IMG/VR virus record: IMGVR_UViG_3300042154_004729
Span: 1-62,733 of that record
Length of the DNA: 62,733 nucleotides
Source: a virus
Strand: one strand, 5' to 3'
In this document: positions 21,847-38,271 of the stretch, piece by piece
Layout of the letters: each line of letters begins with the position of its first letter
How positions within the stretch are numbered: position 1 is the stretch's first letter
Made by a program: the position numbers and the translations under genes
Notes under the pieces: generated by a model
What the model was told of the DNA's origin: nothing
What the model saw: only the letters and a program-made list of their open reading frames with translations
Databases searched by the model: none

Positions 21847-23571
21847 CTACTCAGTCTCAGACTTGAGCCTCGTGAAGTTTTTCACCTTTTCAAACTCAAG
21901 CTTACGCTCAAATTTGCCATCTTGCATCTCAGCATTGTGTGAGATAACAAAGACTCGTGTGCTCGGATCAAGTGTCTCCATAATCTTAAAGAGATTCTCG
22001 ATGCCCTCACCATCCAAACTGCCATCAAATACCTCATCAAGCATGAGTAGATTGGTGTTTGCACTATTCTTCATCTTTGAGATTTGTCTCCAGGCAAAAA
22101 GCAAGCTTAGATCAATACGTGCTCTCTCGCCTTCACTAAAGCTTGCATAGCTAAAGTCATCGCGATAGCGACTACGCAGAGTCTCGGTAAAATTCTCATC
22201 AAGCTCAAAGCTTACGAAAAAGTCAAGAACTTGCAAATAGTTATTGATCAGCTGATTCATGACTGGCAGATATTGACGAATAATCTTGGTTTTAATGCCA
22301 GTGTCCTTTAGCATCTCTGCAACTACATCATTATAGTGGCGATTGTCTTGTAGATTACTTTTAAGATCAGAGAGATTATCACGTTGACTCTTTAGAGTCT
22401 CAAGTTCAGATTGCGAGCTTTCAAGCGCAACAGCATCAGCAATACTATCTCTGGACTTTTTACACTCGGCCAATCTCTTTTCAAGATTTTGTAAATGCAA
22501 ACTATTTGCATGAATAGCATTTTGTAATTTAGCCAATTCATTTAATCGATCAGTGAGAGCTCGAGCTCTCTCTGCAGCCTGTGAAATTGTTTCAGTAATG
22601 CTTGTATCACCAGCTTGTAGTTCACTTGCTTTGTGTGTGCATATCTGCAGTGCTTTTTCACGAGTCTCAGTAGAGATGTCCTGAGTGCAAGTAGGGCAAT
22701 GTGTATGTTCAGAATAAAATGTGCTTTGCTCTTGCAGATCATTGTATTTTATTTTGATTTGAGTTTTTAAACCCTGCAACTCTGCAAGCTTTTCACGCTG
22801 CTTATCAAGTTTGATCTTTACACTGGGAGCATGAAGATTATATGTTTGTAGCTTGCTTGAGTTTTCCTCCAGCACACGAGCTATTTCGGAGTCGATATCT
22901 GCAATCTCAATATCAAGTTTATCAGAGTTATCACCACTAATCTTTTGTAGCTTTTCAATATGACCATGCTGCAATCGCACTCGCTCACGCAAACTCTCTA
23001 ATTGACTCTCAGTATAGCGCAGCTGCTCTTTAAGCTTGCCTTGATTTTCTTTGAGTAGCGTATTCATTTTACTAAAGATGCTAATGTCAAGCAAATCTTC
23101 AATAACTGTCCGACGCTGGCCTTGAGGCAGCTGCATAAATGGTATAAAGTTACCACTGCCAAGAACAATGACCTGGTGAAAGCTCTTATGATTAAGTTTC
23201 AAGATGTTTGTCTCAAGAATCTTTTGATAATCACGATTATGTGATTCCTGATTAAGCATCTCTCCGTCAAGCCAGATCTCAAAGATATTTGGTTTTTGCC
23301 CTCTTAGAATTCGATATTGTTTGGTGCCGCAACGAAACCATATTTCAACGAGCAGACCTTTGCCATTGATGCTATTCACAAGCTGAGTTTTGTTAATGCC
23401 TCGGTGAGGCTTGCCAAAAAGTACAAAGCTAATTGCATCCAACAGCAAACTCTTGCCACTGCCATTTTTTCCAACAATAAGCGTTGATCTATATCCCTCA
23501 AGATCAACCTCGATAGGAGAAGTACCAACGCTTAGGAAATTTACATATTTAATTTTTTCGAAAATGATCAT
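21847..23571 (-). CDS. 46: Recombination endonuclease subunit gp46 (SbcC/Rad50-like)
   Basis: 574 residues (T4: 560). SMC-type ATPase that with gp47 resects DNA ends. Walker A GKNGSGKS is at 34-41. Two coiled-coil arms flank a CPTC zinc hook. The ABC signature is FSEGERARIDLSL, and Walker B LLMLDEVFDG follows. All key residues are present. It overlaps gp47 by 4 nt and ends the gp55-47-46 operon. Confidence 0.96.
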   Translation of the reverse strand: MIIFEKIKYVNFLSVGTSPIEVDLEGYRSTLIVGKNGSGKSLLLDAISFVLFGKPHRGINKTQLVNSINGKGLLVEIWFRCGTKQYRILRGQKPNIFEIWLDGEMLNQESHNRDYQKILETNILKLNHKSFHQVIVLGSGNFIPFMQLPQGQRRTVIEDLLDISIFSKMNTLLKENQGKLKEQLRYTESQLESLRERVRLQHGHIEKLQKISGDNSDKLDIEIADIDSEIARVLEENSSKLQTYNLHAPSVKIKLDKQREKLAELQGLKTQIKIKYNDLQEQSTFYSEHTHCPTCTQDISTETREKALQICTHKASELQAGDTSITETISQAAERARALTDRLNELAKLQNAIHANSLHLQNLEKRLAECKKSRDSIADAVALESSQSELETLKSQRDNLSDLKSNLQDNRHYNDVVAEMLKDTGIKTKIIRQYLPVMNQLINNYLQVLDFFVSFELDENFTETLRSRYRDDFSYASFSEGERARIDLSLLFAWRQISKMKNSANTNLLMLDEVFDGSLDGEGIENLFKIMETLDPSTRVFVISHNAEMQDGKFERKLEFEKVKNFTRLKSETE

Positions 23572-24653: not shown

Positions 24654-25294
24654 AGGGCTGCAAAAAAGTCACTCAATGGACCAAGTTCTGGAGTTTTTTT
24701 AGCTGGTCGACCTCTTTTCTTTTTAGTAGGCAATGGCTCATGATCCTTAACACTGCAAAGATCATCTTTATAAAATGCTCCATCAAGTTTATGACGAGCG
24801 CGTTCAATCATGCTTTCTCCGATCTGACCGCTGTCATCACCAAAGTCCGCAAATGATTCGAGACTTGAACCTTCAATGAGTTTTTGTTTAATCTCCGTTT
24901 GTTTTTTCTCTTTTTCAATGCGTCTTAAAAAGGCATAATAGCTGATTTGTGTAAAATAGCTAAATGCATTTGGTGTGCCTGTTCGAGTAGGAGCATCAAT
25001 ATTAAAGTTATTGACAACCTTAATACAATTTTCTACTGCATCCATAACCATATCATCGCGATAGCTATAGTTCATGAAGTTTGGACTTCGTGATAACCCG
25101 CTAGCAATCTGATAAATCCCCAATGCAATATAGTCTGTAACTACAGGATCCTCCAAGCCAGTTGCTCGGGCAGTTTTAACACTTTGAACATATGAGGCCA
25201 AAGCCAAACTAAGTTCTTTATTGTTAATGTAATCAGATCCTTCTTTTCTTTTACGTGTACTTTTTACTTTTTTTGGTTGATCTTCTTCAATCAT
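24650..25294 (-). CDS. 55: Late-transcription sigma factor gp55
   Basis: 214 residues from ATG 25294 (T4: 185). The frame extends to 25318, but that ATG lies inside the promoter. gp55 directs host RNA polymerase to TATAAATA late promoters, of which many occur here. The sigma region-2-like segment is around DYIALGIYQIASGLSRSPNF, YRDDMVMDAVENCIKVVNNF and FSYFTQISYYAFLRRIEKE. The C-terminus GPLSDFFAAL fits the clamp-binding tail that connects gp55 to gp45. A basic stretch (KKKRGRPAKK) precedes it. Confidence 0.92.
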   Translation of the reverse strand: MIEEDQPKKVKSTRKRKEGSDYINNKELSLALASYVQSVKTARATGLEDPVVTDYIALGIYQIASGLSRSPNFMNYSYRDDMVMDAVENCIKVVNNFNIDAPTRTGTPNAFSYFTQISYYAFLRRIEKEKKQTEIKQKLIEGSSLESFADFGDDSGQIGESMIERARHKLDGAFYKDDLCSVKDHEPLPTKKKRGRPAKKTPELGPLSDFFAAL

Positions 25295-25301
25295 GCTATC
25301 T

Positions 25302-25329
25302 AGTATACCACAAAACAAAAGTTTGTAAA
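25302..25329 (-). promoter_or_regulatory. Early promoter of gp55-47-46
   Basis: GTTTACA (-35 at 25329-25324), 16-nt spacer, extended -10 GGTATACT (TATACT 25307-25302), 7 nt to the ATG at 25294. It is divergent from the plus-strand promoter at 25354. Confidence 0.8.
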
Positions 25330-25353
25330 CAATTATTTTTATGAATTTTTTGG

Positions 25354-25381
25354 TTTACAAACAATCAGATTCATGTATAAT
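25354..25381 (+). promoter_or_regulatory. Plus-strand early promoter, copy A
   Basis: T-tract, GTTTACA (-35 TTTACA 25354-25359), 16-nt spacer, TATAAT (25376-25381). It is one of only two such promoters found on the plus strand and points away from gp55, antisense to the uvsW 3' end. Confidence 0.7.
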
Positions 25382-25422
25382 AGGTGCCATGCACCTTCGG
25401 CTGAATGAAATGAAGCCGATAG
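25374..25422 (+). repeat. 49-nt dispersed repeat, copy A
   Basis: It matches 37771-37819 at 48 of 49 positions. It spans the -10, a GGTGC-CAT-GCACC inverted repeat, and the first codons of a micro-ORF. The only difference is C at 25416 versus A at 37813. Confidence 0.9.
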
Positions 25423-25457
25423 ATGATGCTGATTGTTTGCTCTTAAAATATCTATAA
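25389..25457 (+). CDS. Plus-strand micro-ORF A (22 codons), candidate
   Basis: The ATG lies 7 nt after TATAAT, the same leaderless layout as gp43 and gp55. It encodes MHLRLNEMKPIDD... and stops at TAA 25455-25457. Micro-ORF B at 37786 begins with the same nine residues. A hairpin follows at 25454-25470. There is no homology to a known protein. The conserved element may instead act as RNA or DNA, so the coding claim is tentative. Confidence 0.4.
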   Translation: MHLRLNEMKPIDDADCLLLKYL

Positions 25458-25508: not shown

Positions 25509-27017
25509 TTAGATCTTAACTGTATATATTTTGTAATTAAAGCCTTCTTTGTCATAGATGCCAACACGCTCTGCTCCATGCTTTAAACTAAAGTTTTTCT
25601 TTTTCTTCCATGAGAAGTTATCGCTAATATCATAGACTGTAGTAGCTTGACCATTATCGCTCAACCGCAAGCCTCGGCCAATACTTTGTAGGATTTTAAT
25701 TTGACTTTTAGTGGGAGCAGCAAAAATAATATTATGCAGATTGCGTATATTAATGCCTGTACTAAATGTAGCACTACTTGCGACAATAATTGCATTTGAT
25801 TCGCTCTCTACTTCTCCACGTATGCTTTCGCGAACATCAGTATCTGTTTCGCCACTGACATAATAGATCTTGCGATCTGGCTCTGCTGCAACCAATGCGG
25901 CATGCAATGGCTTGCCATGTTTTACAACATAGTTGAAAATTACAAGTGTATTGCCTTTTAAGCCTCTAGCTAGATTAACAATAAACCTATTGCGAGCAGA
26001 GTGGGAAATAATGACATCAATCTCACTAGCATAATCCAGTTTGCTTACCGCCTTTTTAACTTCATCATCATAATCAAGCACAATGCAATGTATAGTCAAC
26101 TCTGCAAGTGTTTTGCTCTCCATAAGAGCCTTTGTTGTTGTGACTTTAAATATTGGTCCAAAATGTCCAACAAGAACTCGCTCATTGCATTTGCTGCCAT
26201 CAAGTGTGCCCGTTGTGCCAATGCGATAGCTTGCATTGGTTAGCGTATTCATAATGCTATTGAGACTCTTTGCTTTAAACTGATGTGCTTCATCTCCAAC
26301 AATCATGCCATATTTTTTGAACCAACTCTCAGGACATGTAATTGCGCTCTGCCATGTTGTGATGGTTACGCGAGTTCCAGCAACTTCTTTTTCTTTGCCG
26401 CTATAGATGCGATGCACTAATTTTTCAGAATCAAATTCAGAGTCATGAGTGCTATAGTCAGAGAAATCACTGGCGAGCTGTTCAACAAGACTAGTAGTTG
26501 GCACAACAACAAGTGCTTTTTCACTTTCATGATCAATATACCAACGAAGCAGCATATAGATGATCAAGCTCTTACCGCTGCCAGTCGGACTTAAGACAAG
26601 TGTTCTTCCGCTAGTCAAGCTTTGTACAACTGCTTCAATTTGATAATCATGAGGAGTTATGCTATTTCCTCGAGCAGACAGATTTAATTTTGAAATATAG
26701 TCAATCACCTCTTGTCGAGAAGGCAATGGTGCTCGCAAACTATCATCATATTCGATTTTATAATTACGCTCTTTTGCAAATTTTGCAACCTCTCCAATTA
26801 AACCATAAGGCAGTGTATGCGATCTCAAATTAAATAGTCTAATTTTTCCATCCCATAGTTTGTTACGATACGCAGGTATGAACTTATAGCCCTCAGCATA
26901 AAATGTAAAATGCTCAGCGAGCTCCATAAGTGCGCCAGTATCAGCGCATCTGACAAAGATCTCTGCTTCATTCTTTTTAGTTAGCTTAAACACCTGCTTG
27001 GAATTTCTTAAAGTCAA
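25509..27017 (-). CDS. uvsW: UvsW recombination helicase
   Basis: 502 residues (T4: 587). SF2 helicase that processes branched DNA and R-loops and shifts replication to the recombination mode. Walker A PTGSGKS is at 144-150, the DEAH box GDEAHQFK near 246, TGTLDG as motif III region, and SIGRGLRLSD as motif VI. It overlaps the uvsY 3' end by 32 nt, so the pair is one unit. It ends in a 190-nt gap that holds hairpins, the repeat element and divergent promoters. Confidence 0.95.
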   Translation of the reverse strand: MTLRNSKQVFKLTKKNEAEIFVRCADTGALMELAEHFTFYAEGYKFIPAYRNKLWDGKIRLFNLRSHTLPYGLIGEVAKFAKERNYKIEYDDSLRAPLPSRQEVIDYISKLNLSARGNSITPHDYQIEAVVQSLTSGRTLVLSPTGSGKSLIIYMLLRWYIDHESEKALVVVPTTSLVEQLASDFSDYSTHDSEFDSEKLVHRIYSGKEKEVAGTRVTITTWQSAITCPESWFKKYGMIVGDEAHQFKAKSLNSIMNTLTNASYRIGTTGTLDGSKCNERVLVGHFGPIFKVTTTKALMESKTLAELTIHCIVLDYDDEVKKAVSKLDYASEIDVIISHSARNRFIVNLARGLKGNTLVIFNYVVKHGKPLHAALVAAEPDRKIYYVSGETDTDVRESIRGEVESESNAIIVASSATFSTGINIRNLHNIIFAAPTKSQIKILQSIGRGLRLSDNGQATTVYDISDNFSWKKKKNFSLKHGAERVGIYDKEGFNYKIYTVKI

Positions 27018-36157: not shown

Positions 36158-36176
36158 ATACACTTTCAAAGTGTAT
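36158..36176 (-). terminator. Hairpin at the gp17 stop
   Basis: Arms ATACACTTT / AAAGTGTAT with a 1-nt centre overlapping the gp17 stop; AATTTAT follows on the minus strand. Tight loop, so termination strength is uncertain. Confidence 0.5.
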
Positions 36177-37743
36177 GCCACTCTCTTGCATTATCTATTA
36201 GTTGGTCATATGCACTGCCCATTGATGTTGTCGTTGAAACATAACCAAATGGTGGCAAATCCTCTTCCATCTCAAGCATCTTTTCACTATATAGTAATTC
36301 GCGCAGGTCAGTATCACTCATGCCATTAAATACATCTGTACTCACAAACCAAGAGAAGAGTACGAAATTCATAACACTATCATCATGTGCACCTTCACTT
36401 GCGGCAAAGCTATCACCCTTTGGTACAAAATTTGCGAGCTCACTGATTGTATAGGCATCAACAATGTGTAGTTTATTGCCTTCTAACAAATCCTTTAGAT
36501 TGCTGCAACCAACGCGTTTAACCTTTTTTGTCATGACAACGCCAATGCCGTTACTCTTAACAGCACTTGTTGTAAACATATTTTCATATTCATAGTCATA
36601 ATAAACAGCGTTGCACACAACCTGACCAACATCATTGTTTTCAATAATAACAAGTGCCTGATTATATTGTGTTGCTGCGCGAACAATAAGATTAGGAAAT
36701 AGCAACGGTGAAATAGTATTGTTGCGATAGGTACAAACCTGCTTAAACGGTTTTGATGATATGTCAATTACTGAGAAGGTACTATAATCCTGTCCACGAC
36801 CTTTACTAACATCAGCTACAAGTATATAGGCATGATCTTCTTGCGGCGCCTCATAATAAGCAATATCATGCTGCATATTAATTGGACTTTGTGCTTGCAT
36901 GCCAAGCAAGCATGTGCTATTTACTAGTGTATCTGCACTGCCGACAAATTCGCAACTAAACTCTTGTCGAAACTGTGCTTCACTTGTATTTGCAATTGTC
37001 TTAGCACGCCAATCGTCATCTCGACCAGGCACATCTCGCCAATTAATAGTAAATGGTTTAAATTCATTGCTGTTACTAATTGCGCCTTGCCATAGTTTAT
37101 AAAACATATTGCTGACACCATTTGGTGTACTTGTAATAATAACCTTTGTATCACTACCAGAGCTAATTACAGGATATGTACTTGTATAAAATTCTTCAGC
37201 TTTATGCACAAAGGCAAACTCATCAAGAAAAATAATGTTTGCACTTATGCCTCGAATACTACTGCTGCTTGTTGCAGCGGCAATAATCTCGCTATTATGT
37301 GCAAATACAATATTACCTTTATTAAGCACTCTCACACCGGGCTGCAAAAAGAATGGCAGATTTTCAAGCATAAGAGTAAAGCGGCTTAACATCTCGCGGG
37401 CAGTTGCCCCTTTATTTGCGAGTACTGCAACCTTTTTATCTGCGTTGAAAACCATATAGTGTAATAGCCATGCAACACTAGTCACACTCTTACCACTTTG
37501 TCTTGGAGCCAAAACAATACTAAATCGATTAGCACTATAGTGTTTTACAAGATTGCTTTGATAGCCACGTAATTCAAATGGCACGAGCCCATGATCCAGA
37601 CTAATGACCTTTACATAATTCTTACAAAAATATTCGACATCATCACGACAGCGAATATATTCACTCACTTCATGTGCTGTAAAATTTTGTTGTACCCCAT
37701 CTGCTTTTATTTTGGGGTTTCCATTATATGAATTATTTTGCAT
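36166..37743 (-). CDS. 17: Terminase large subunit gp17
   Basis: 525 residues (T4: 610). Packaging motor ATPase and headful nuclease. Walker A APRQSGKS is at 79-86 and Walker B IIFLDEFAF at about 170-178. The C-terminal RNase H-like nuclease shows ILVADVSKGRGQDYSTFSV in parts, VIIENNDVGQVV and GAHDDSVM, all acidic positions present. gp16 lies upstream. The 87-nt gap between them holds repeat copy B and a plus-strand promoter. Confidence 0.97.
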   Translation of the reverse strand: MQNNSYNGNPKIKADGVQQNFTAHEVSEYIRCRDDVEYFCKNYVKVISLDHGLVPFELRGYQSNLVKHYSANRFSIVLAPRQSGKSVTSVAWLLHYMVFNADKKVAVLANKGATAREMLSRFTLMLENLPFFLQPGVRVLNKGNIVFAHNSEIIAAATSSSSIRGISANIIFLDEFAFVHKAEEFYTSTYPVISSGSDTKVIITSTPNGVSNMFYKLWQGAISNSNEFKPFTINWRDVPGRDDDWRAKTIANTSEAQFRQEFSCEFVGSADTLVNSTCLLGMQAQSPINMQHDIAYYEAPQEDHAYILVADVSKGRGQDYSTFSVIDISSKPFKQVCTYRNNTISPLLFPNLIVRAATQYNQALVIIENNDVGQVVCNAVYYDYEYENMFTTSAVKSNGIGVVMTKKVKRVGCSNLKDLLEGNKLHIVDAYTISELANFVPKGDSFAASEGAHDDSVMNFVLFSWFVSTDVFNGMSDTDLRELLYSEKMLEMEEDLPPFGYVSTTTSMGSAYDQLIDNAREWHTL

Positions 37744-37750
37744 TTTTTTG

Positions 37751-37778
37751 TTTACAAACTTTCAACATTGTGTATAAT
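37751..37778 (+). promoter_or_regulatory. Plus-strand early promoter, copy B
   Basis: T7 tract, GTTTACA (-35 TTTACA 37751-37756), 16-nt spacer, TATAAT (37773-37778). It points antisense into the gp16 3' end. Confidence 0.7.
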
Positions 37779-37819
37779 AGGTGCCATGCACCTTCGGCTG
37801 AATGAAATGAAGACGATAG
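37771..37819 (+). repeat. 49-nt dispersed repeat, copy B
   Basis: It matches 25374-25422 except at 37813. It contains the -10, the GGTGC-CAT-GCACC inverted repeat and the start of micro-ORF B. The -35 region TTTACAAAC is also shared just outside it. Confidence 0.9.
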
Positions 37820-37857
37820 CTGCAGCTTATCTATGCCTGTTGATTTTGATTACTTAA
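37786..37857 (+). CDS. Plus-strand micro-ORF B (23 codons), candidate
   Basis: The ATG is 7 nt after TATAAT. It encodes MHLRLNEMKTIAAAYLCLL and ends at TAA 37855-37857, overlapping the gp16 3' end on the other strand by 27 nt. It shares nine N-terminal residues with micro-ORF A, then diverges to a hydrophobic tail. It may be a peptide, or a by-product of a conserved promoter/RNA element. Confidence 0.4.
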   Translation: MHLRLNEMKTIAAAYLCLLILIT

Positions 37858-38271
37858 GAATTTTTGAAGTTCAGTAGTTGTACCAACAAAAATTGCATTG
37901 TTTGTTGTACTATTTGCCTCATTAGGCTTATTGCCTTTGATCAAAGTTTTACGCTGCTTTTGAAGATCAAGCAGCTGCTGATTCATTTCAGCACTTTGTT
38001 TGATCATATTGCCAAGCACCTCATATGCTCTAGGATGTTCAGCATCAGTAGCAAGTGCATGTAAGTTACTTATAACCTCATCGCTTGTCTCGAGAAGTTT
38101 TTTCATGCGTACTCGAGCATATTCAAAATCATCTTGCGCATCACTTATTAGTGCTTCATCACTTGGCTCAGGCGTTAAAATCTTTGGAGGAGCTGGAGCT
38201 GGCATCATAATCTCAAGCTGACCAGTCAAGTTTTTCATTAACTCACTTTTATGGGATTGGTCGGTTTTCAT
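37831..38271 (-). CDS. 16: Terminase small subunit gp16
   Basis: 146 residues from 38271 (T4: 164); ATG 38238 would avoid the 23-nt overlap with gp15 and is also possible. gp16 recognises DNA and stimulates gp17. Typical features are the helical DDFEYARVRMKKLLETSDEV and LHALATDAEHPRAYEVLGNM stretches and the LLDLQKQRKTL tail. Order gp15-gp16-gp17 is as in T4. Confidence 0.9.
   Translation of the reverse strand: MKTDQSHKSELMKNLTGQLEIMMPAPAPPKILTPEPSDEALISDAQDDFEYARVRMKKLLETSDEVISNLHALATDAEHPRAYEVLGNMIKQSAEMNQQLLDLQKQRKTLIKGNKPNEANSTTNNAIFVGTTTELQKFLSNQNQQA

Follow-up and report, generated by a model that had tools for sequence, protein, structure and literature searches.

What is the function of the gap between uvsW and gp55, where a block of DNA that is repeated elsewhere in the genome points against the genes around it? 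The window, the whole 62,733-nt stretch of viral DNA analysed here, has the gene order terS, terL, tail, portal, capsid, uvsY, uvsW, gp55, 47/46, which is the same in C48C1. The best matches of its terL are T4-like phages classed as Kyanoviridae (C48C1, 57%; Synechococcus phages, 47%). In a preliminary description the block was read as an early promoter joined to a conserved micro-ORF, with a regulatory RNA, a tiny peptide or a transferred promoter cassette as its possible function. Our analysis indicates that the repeated block is probably a switch that helps to time late gene expression, not a tiny gene.

The elements of this description are present in the DNA. The TTTACA-16-TATAAT promoter can be read directly, and an ATG at 25389, seven nucleotides past the -10, opens the 22 codons of MHLRLNEMKPIDDADCLLLKYL, which end in a stop codon. 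The 49-nt block at 25374-25422 is repeated at 37771-37819 with a single mismatch (C25416/A37813). Its 21-mer core has no other occurrence in the window (chance expectation 0.00 in shuffled windows), and TTTACA-N15-18-TATAAT is found four times in the window, with 0.18 expected. The homology exceeds the block first noted. Copy A (25354-25422) and copy B (37751-37819) each have, on the plus strand, a promoter of the form GTTTACA-16-TATAAT, followed by 41 nt that are identical but for this mismatch. The -35 and the A/T tract upstream match too; divergence is confined to the promoter spacer, which is what selection on the promoter itself would be expected to produce. Both copies score 11/12 against TTGACA/TATAAT, with the spacing within 16-18 nt. 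The gap that holds copy A is at least 190 nt long, from the uvsW end at 25509 to the gp55 ATG at 25294, both on the minus strand, and contains a second hairpin in addition to the inverted repeat described before (Table 1).

Table 1 Positions of the promoter elements, hairpins and neighbouring genes of copies A and B in the window.
Feature	Position	Strand	Basis or remark
A/T tract 5' of the -35, UP-like, copy A	25345..25352	+	common to copies A, B and C
-35 hexamer TTTACA in GTTTACAAAC, copy A	25354..25359	+	invariant in 8 element sequences
-10 hexamer TATAAT with TG before it, copy A	25376..25381	+	invariant in 8 element sequences
Operator-like palindrome AGGTGC-CAT-GCACCT, predicted start A25389, copy A	25382..25396	+	direct reading
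Hairpin 2, UCGGCU-GAAUGAAAUGA-AGCCGA, 5' end of predicted antisense RNA, copy A	25397..25419	+	compensatory pairs; fold
Micro-ORF, 22 codons, probably no functional gene	25389..25457	+	lost in copy C and distant relatives
gp55 sense promoter, divergent, TTTACA-16-TATACT, ATG seven nt past the -10	25302..25329	-	early promoter
gp55, late sigma factor, 214 aa	24650..25294	-	phrog_234 E=3e-46
uvsW helicase; 3' end overlapped by predicted antisense RNA	25509..27017	-	phrog_16 E=6e-99
-35 TTTACA, copy B	37751..37756	+	
-10 TATAAT, copy B	37773..37778	+	
Palindrome AGGTGC-CAT-GCACCT around predicted start, copy B	37779..37793	+	
Hairpin 2, copy B	37794..37816	+	one G-A mismatch; fully paired in L009 and L010
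Terminase small subunit (terS), upstream of copy B	37831..38271	-	phrog_445 E=2e-31
Terminase large subunit (terL); start codon seven nt from the copy B -35	36166..37743	-	

An 11-bp perfect inverted repeat (CAAACAATCAG / CTGATTGTTTG, 25356-25441) flanks copy A and closes both hairpins into one structure. This long outer stem, with a z of about -5 to -7 on both strands, was rejected as a shared feature, since it is strong in copy A and L012, weaker or altered in L016 and absent or doubtful in copies B and C.

IMG/VR contains contigs with the same element, three of them near-identical to the window. A third copy, C, lies at 37219-37293 of one of these three, the 86-kb contig G001; its neighbours are a virion structural gene on one side and, on the other, a gene without known function that lies upstream of nrdBA. 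Copy C reads GGTGC-TTA-GCACC and hence has no ATG; its loop is 1 nt shorter, which shifts the frame. AGGTGC-NNN-GCACCT is common to all three sites, and all three sit in intergenic gaps. The strong plus-strand GTTTAC-type early promoters of the window phage and three related contigs are A, B and C, each with palindrome and hairpin, while none of the sense promoters of these four contigs has the element. GGTGC-N3-GCACC is limited to copies A, B and C in this set, and a covariance model finds the full element in this clade only. Outside the clade, a pattern search of IMG/VR returned only chance or coding-sequence matches, and a direct DNA search of phage records with copy A gave no meaningful match. 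terL relatives at 67-71% identity keep ATTTACA-17-TACAAT at the same antisense position, without the hairpin.

Where would transcription from these promoters start? At the sense early promoters of the phage (gp55, a 223-aa gene, nrdB and others) the ATG lies six to nine nucleotides past the -10, and most genes behind the late promoters (TATAAATA; 11 minus-strand and 1 plus-strand) show the same placement. Given this spacing, the start sites of copies A and B are most likely A25389 and A37786, in the centre of the AGGTGC palindrome. With such a position, a DNA site seems a better reading of the palindrome than an RNA hairpin. An ATG at about +1 is seen at early and late promoters alike (window minus strand 61406, 48461, 42416, 41078, 31855, 14283 and 5378; early promoters of G001, G003 and G004). 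Shine-Dalgarno-like sequences were found for 3 of 54 minus-strand genes, no more than at random positions, and translation in this phage appears to be leaderless or SD-less throughout. There is no TATAAATA directly upstream of terL, whose expression seems to depend on read-through from 41078. In a relative, the IMG/VR contig G005 (3300012348_000173), at least four early promoters (92788, 85180, 82559 and 78340) have a common leader, GATTCTGTAAGGAAAC, which forms a repeated promoter-leader cassette with an SD-like sequence.

The ATG of the micro-ORF is located where the leaderless early genes of this phage start (gp55, nrdB and others), and copies A and B have 20-23 open codons across most of the window clade, as would be expected if the block encoded a conserved micro-peptide translated from a leaderless mRNA. 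However, the variation within the element tracks the pairing of hairpin 2. Among eight distinct element sequences, the hairpin occurs as UCGGCU/AGCCGA, CCCGCU/AGCGGG and CCCACU/AGUGGG, with three pairs changed on both sides. In this alignment 99% of cells are paired and the covariation score is higher than in all 500 shuffles; the arms of hairpin 1 show zero variation. As codons, the hairpin 2 changes are mostly non-synonymous (R/P, P/T/R/W, I/V, E/V). Of seven variable positions in the shared codons, five change the amino acid and six fall in the hairpin stem, where pairing is kept except for one G-A mismatch in copy B. The peptide has no family match. Relatives that break both the promoter and the ORF had been named as an outcome that would speak against the preliminary description; half of this is seen, since gp55 relatives at 52-60% identity have ATGTAA or no ATG at the micro-ORF start and keep the promoter. 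The non-synonymous pattern, together with the missing ATG and the loop deletion of copy C, argues that the peptide is not the conserved feature, and we consider a conserved micro-peptide very unlikely.

A minus-strand ORF of 11 codons (MAPIIH...L, then a stop, ending in the complement of the -35) was also rejected. Copy C has TAA in place of its ATG, and the fixed spacing of the promoter accounts for the constant length of this ORF. In the gap upstream of gp55 in L176-L181 (52-60% gp55 identity), the predicted antisense transcript would open with another conserved stretch, GTAACCGCAAATGCTGTTAGGA.

The covarying hairpin lies directly 3' of the promoter, and the common part of the copies consists of the promoter and ~35 nt of transcript, with no common 3' end or terminator. 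This would fit a functional unit in the 5' RNA, acting in cis on the nascent transcript as an antitermination, anti-pausing or stability hairpin and letting untranslated antisense transcription continue, as in HK022 put. The put RNAs consist of two stem-loops near early promoters (PMC9378689). Hairpin 2 is limited to the clade, however, whereas the promoter is found far more widely. It measures ~25 nt compared with ~70 nt for put, and because the first stem has the predicted +1 at its centre, part of it would be missing from the transcript. We therefore regard a 5' RNA element as an unlikely basis for the whole block, although the regulatory RNA of the preliminary description may still apply to the 5' hairpin of copies A, B and C.

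The orientation of the promoters is also consistent with a gene for an antisense or small regulatory RNA that base pairs with the mRNA of uvsW, terS or a structural gene. CfrI in cyanophage S-PM2 is a precedent (PMC2984593), and antisense transcription has been reported in Kyanoviridae (PMC10976474). Such a gene seems rather improbable, since the upstream gene changes among relatives while the promoter is constant. A search for an antisense terminator found no clear excess and none conserved within 600 nt. No Rfam family matches the window above the gathering score, and boxA-like strings were judged to be chance occurrences in A/T-rich DNA.

The promoter at gp55 is conserved far beyond the species. 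It is present in all ten distant genomes first checked, which include pelagiphage HTVC008M, six Synechococcus phages, C48C1, Sinorhizobium phiN3 and Stenotrophomonas DLP_6. A scan based on a gp55 alignment added 80 further loci. The set assessed comprised 109 loci from Kyanoviridae and other T4-like phages. Counted at a score of at least 11/12 just upstream of gp55, an antisense promoter occurs at 83 of the 109 loci, compared with 2.2% of dinucleotide shuffles; the controls gave 3/109 in the gp55 coding sequence and 3/107 further upstream. Many of the loci are related, and clustering leaves 88 sequence clusters, 69 of which keep the promoter. It is absent from one enteric T4-like phage, a Krischvirus. 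At the 88 loci where both promoters are present, the two -35 boxes lie within -20 to +9 nt of each other in 74, and the antisense -35 usually abuts or overlaps the gp55 promoter. The overlap is looser in the window than in the cyanophages, with 23 nt between the two boxes. The gene upstream varies (uvsW, a hypothetical gene, or an insert in G004) while the promoter stays. The G004 insert measures ~1.7 kb (21853-23551) and separates copy A from uvsW; the promoter stays beside gp55. This comparison of genomes thus strongly supports the originally proposed early promoter on the plus strand, which diverges from gp55 and points antisense to uvsW; the promoter is very probably real and conserved. 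We found no description of an antisense promoter at gp55 in the open-access literature.

In T4, the early transcripts of oriE run against the late ones, and the product of uvsW, the gene that copy A adjoins, unwinds origin R-loops. oriE apparently depends on an early promoter (PMC3016281). A replication origin primed by the antisense early transcript would resemble this arrangement, but the number of copies is three here and two or three in each cyanophage genome, and some of them drive ordinary genes. No iterons were seen and the GC skew shows no switch. We consider an origin highly improbable.

The start-site sequence provides a further clue. Cyanophage sites around the predicted start follow AAC-TC-TGT-CA-GGGTT, with T-G invariant and the next T at 95% in a cyanophage-type set that was selected for the motif. 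TGT is found at the motif place in 71 of 82 distinct sites. The cyanophage arms are quasi-palindromic but imperfect (70% paired, 64% when shuffled). The corresponding sites read TCAGGT-GTC-GCCTGA in DLP_6, CAGGA-ATG-TCCTG in phiN3 and AGGCA-TG-TGCCT in HTVC008M. In many of these genomes the start-site motif recurs at one or two more promoters, some of them sense, including those of the CP12/CpeT operon in ACG-2014a, CpeT in S-RIM2 and small ORFs. Since it also drives sense genes in cyanophages, the motif is not tied to an antisense function. CP12/CpeT lies behind a promoter of the gp55-antisense type with the start-site motif at KJ019088.1 12317+ and KX349271.1 13319+. The shared motif suggests that CP12/CpeT and the gp55 antisense promoter form one regulon. 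Sf-FR1 (PV340855.1 45509-) carries the antisense promoter motif divergent from a DNA helicase gene, as a second divergent antisense site.

The arms agree within each genome. S-RIM2 has AACCATG three times, S-PRM1 AACTCTGCCAG three times and ACG-2014a AACACTG three times, while the G020 contig contains AGCAATGTGGCGCTT twice and nothing similar elsewhere. The left-arm distance between a genome's own gp55 site and its other sites is 0.38, compared with 1.77 when permuted (p<5e-5). A consensus model, which is biased towards similar sites, was used to find the secondary ones; permuting these among genomes controls for the bias, and the observed agreement was never reached in 20,000 trials. A palindrome located at the promoter and common to the sites of one genome has the properties of an operator for a dimeric regulator. 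Arms that agree within a genome and differ between phages are the signature of an operator and a regulator co-evolving in each phage. When 74 early proteins were compared with Pfam and PHROGs families, the matches listed included no obvious helix-turn-helix repressor.

The genome-specific arms also bear on the transferred promoter cassette of the preliminary description. Paralogous copies of promoter and stem-loop in intergenic gaps could represent a mobile, PeSL-like cassette, copied by recombination among the gaps and without further function. Yet the operator has been preserved despite divergence of the spacers and flanks, and the conservation of the gp55 position across families indicates that the site is not random. 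The copy A promoter is already seen at the same position in relatives. Transfer may account for the origin of the copies but leaves the genome-specific palindromes unexplained, and a cassette of this kind is a very improbable explanation of the block.

We favour a regulated antisense early promoter that faces away from gp55, terL and a gene without known function, and hold the timing reading as a whole with moderate confidence. Copies A, B and C would act as host-sigma-type early promoters firing against the surrounding gene direction, with copy A back to back with the gp55 promoter and a palindromic operator over its predicted start site. Promoters of this kind share one palindrome within a genome, whereas the palindrome varies from phage to phage; from this we infer that it is bound by a phage-encoded dimeric regulator. 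When open, the antisense promoter could compete with the gp55 promoter for space and drive transcription into late gene clusters from their 3' side, opposing read-through. Closure by the regulator would then release gp55 and the late genes. Copies B and C may oppose transcription entering terL or the 194-aa gene; they have no adjacent sense promoter to compete with, which counts against the competition. The predicted RNA would start inside the palindrome and carry the short hairpin 2, which is kept by compensatory mutation in the clade and probably protects or regulates the untranslated RNA.

More tentatively, this arrangement may be a previously unrecognised late-programme switch in Kyanoviridae and related T4-like phages. 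It would consist of a dedicated antisense early promoter overlapping the gp55 promoter, a start-site operator and a fast-evolving phage regulator, with one or two further promoters controlled in each phage. Cyanophages and pelagiphages are very abundant marine viruses, and we know of no account of how they time the production of the late sigma factor. An antisense promoter that overlaps the gp55 promoter in most lineages tested, with a phage-private, operator-like start site, is a concrete candidate for the timer. The model predicts a phage regulator and, genome by genome, a small regulon, to which the CP12/CpeT host-takeover genes would belong in some cyanophages.

Several known systems share parts of this architecture. 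T4 early promoters, which are sigma70-dependent, have a GTTTAC -35 box, TATAAT and an upstream A/T tract, all of which are present here; the element described here differs in pointing against the genes and in having a palindrome over the start and a 5' hairpin. PeSLs are reportedly mobile regulatory cassettes of T4-type phages, with a stem-loop upstream of an early promoter, located between genes in several copies per genome. Our element is similarly short, intergenic and multicopy, but its stem-loop lies on or after the start site instead of before the promoter, its orientation is antisense and its gp55 position is conserved across families. With HK022 put, too, an early transcript opens with stem-loop RNA, but put has two long stem-loops in ~70 nt and lies on sense operons, in contrast to the single covarying hairpin of ~23 nt found here. 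CfrI of S-PM2 is an antisense transcript of a T4-like cyanophage, as predicted for our element; it spans psbA and a homing endonuclease gene and has no link to gp55. In lambda, the promoters PRM and PR stand back to back, and a phage repressor that binds palindromic sites sets the balance between them. The gp55 locus resembles this pair in its divergent promoters and palindromic sites and would differ in that its repressor is a putative one and one of its promoters is predicted to make an antisense RNA without a gene.
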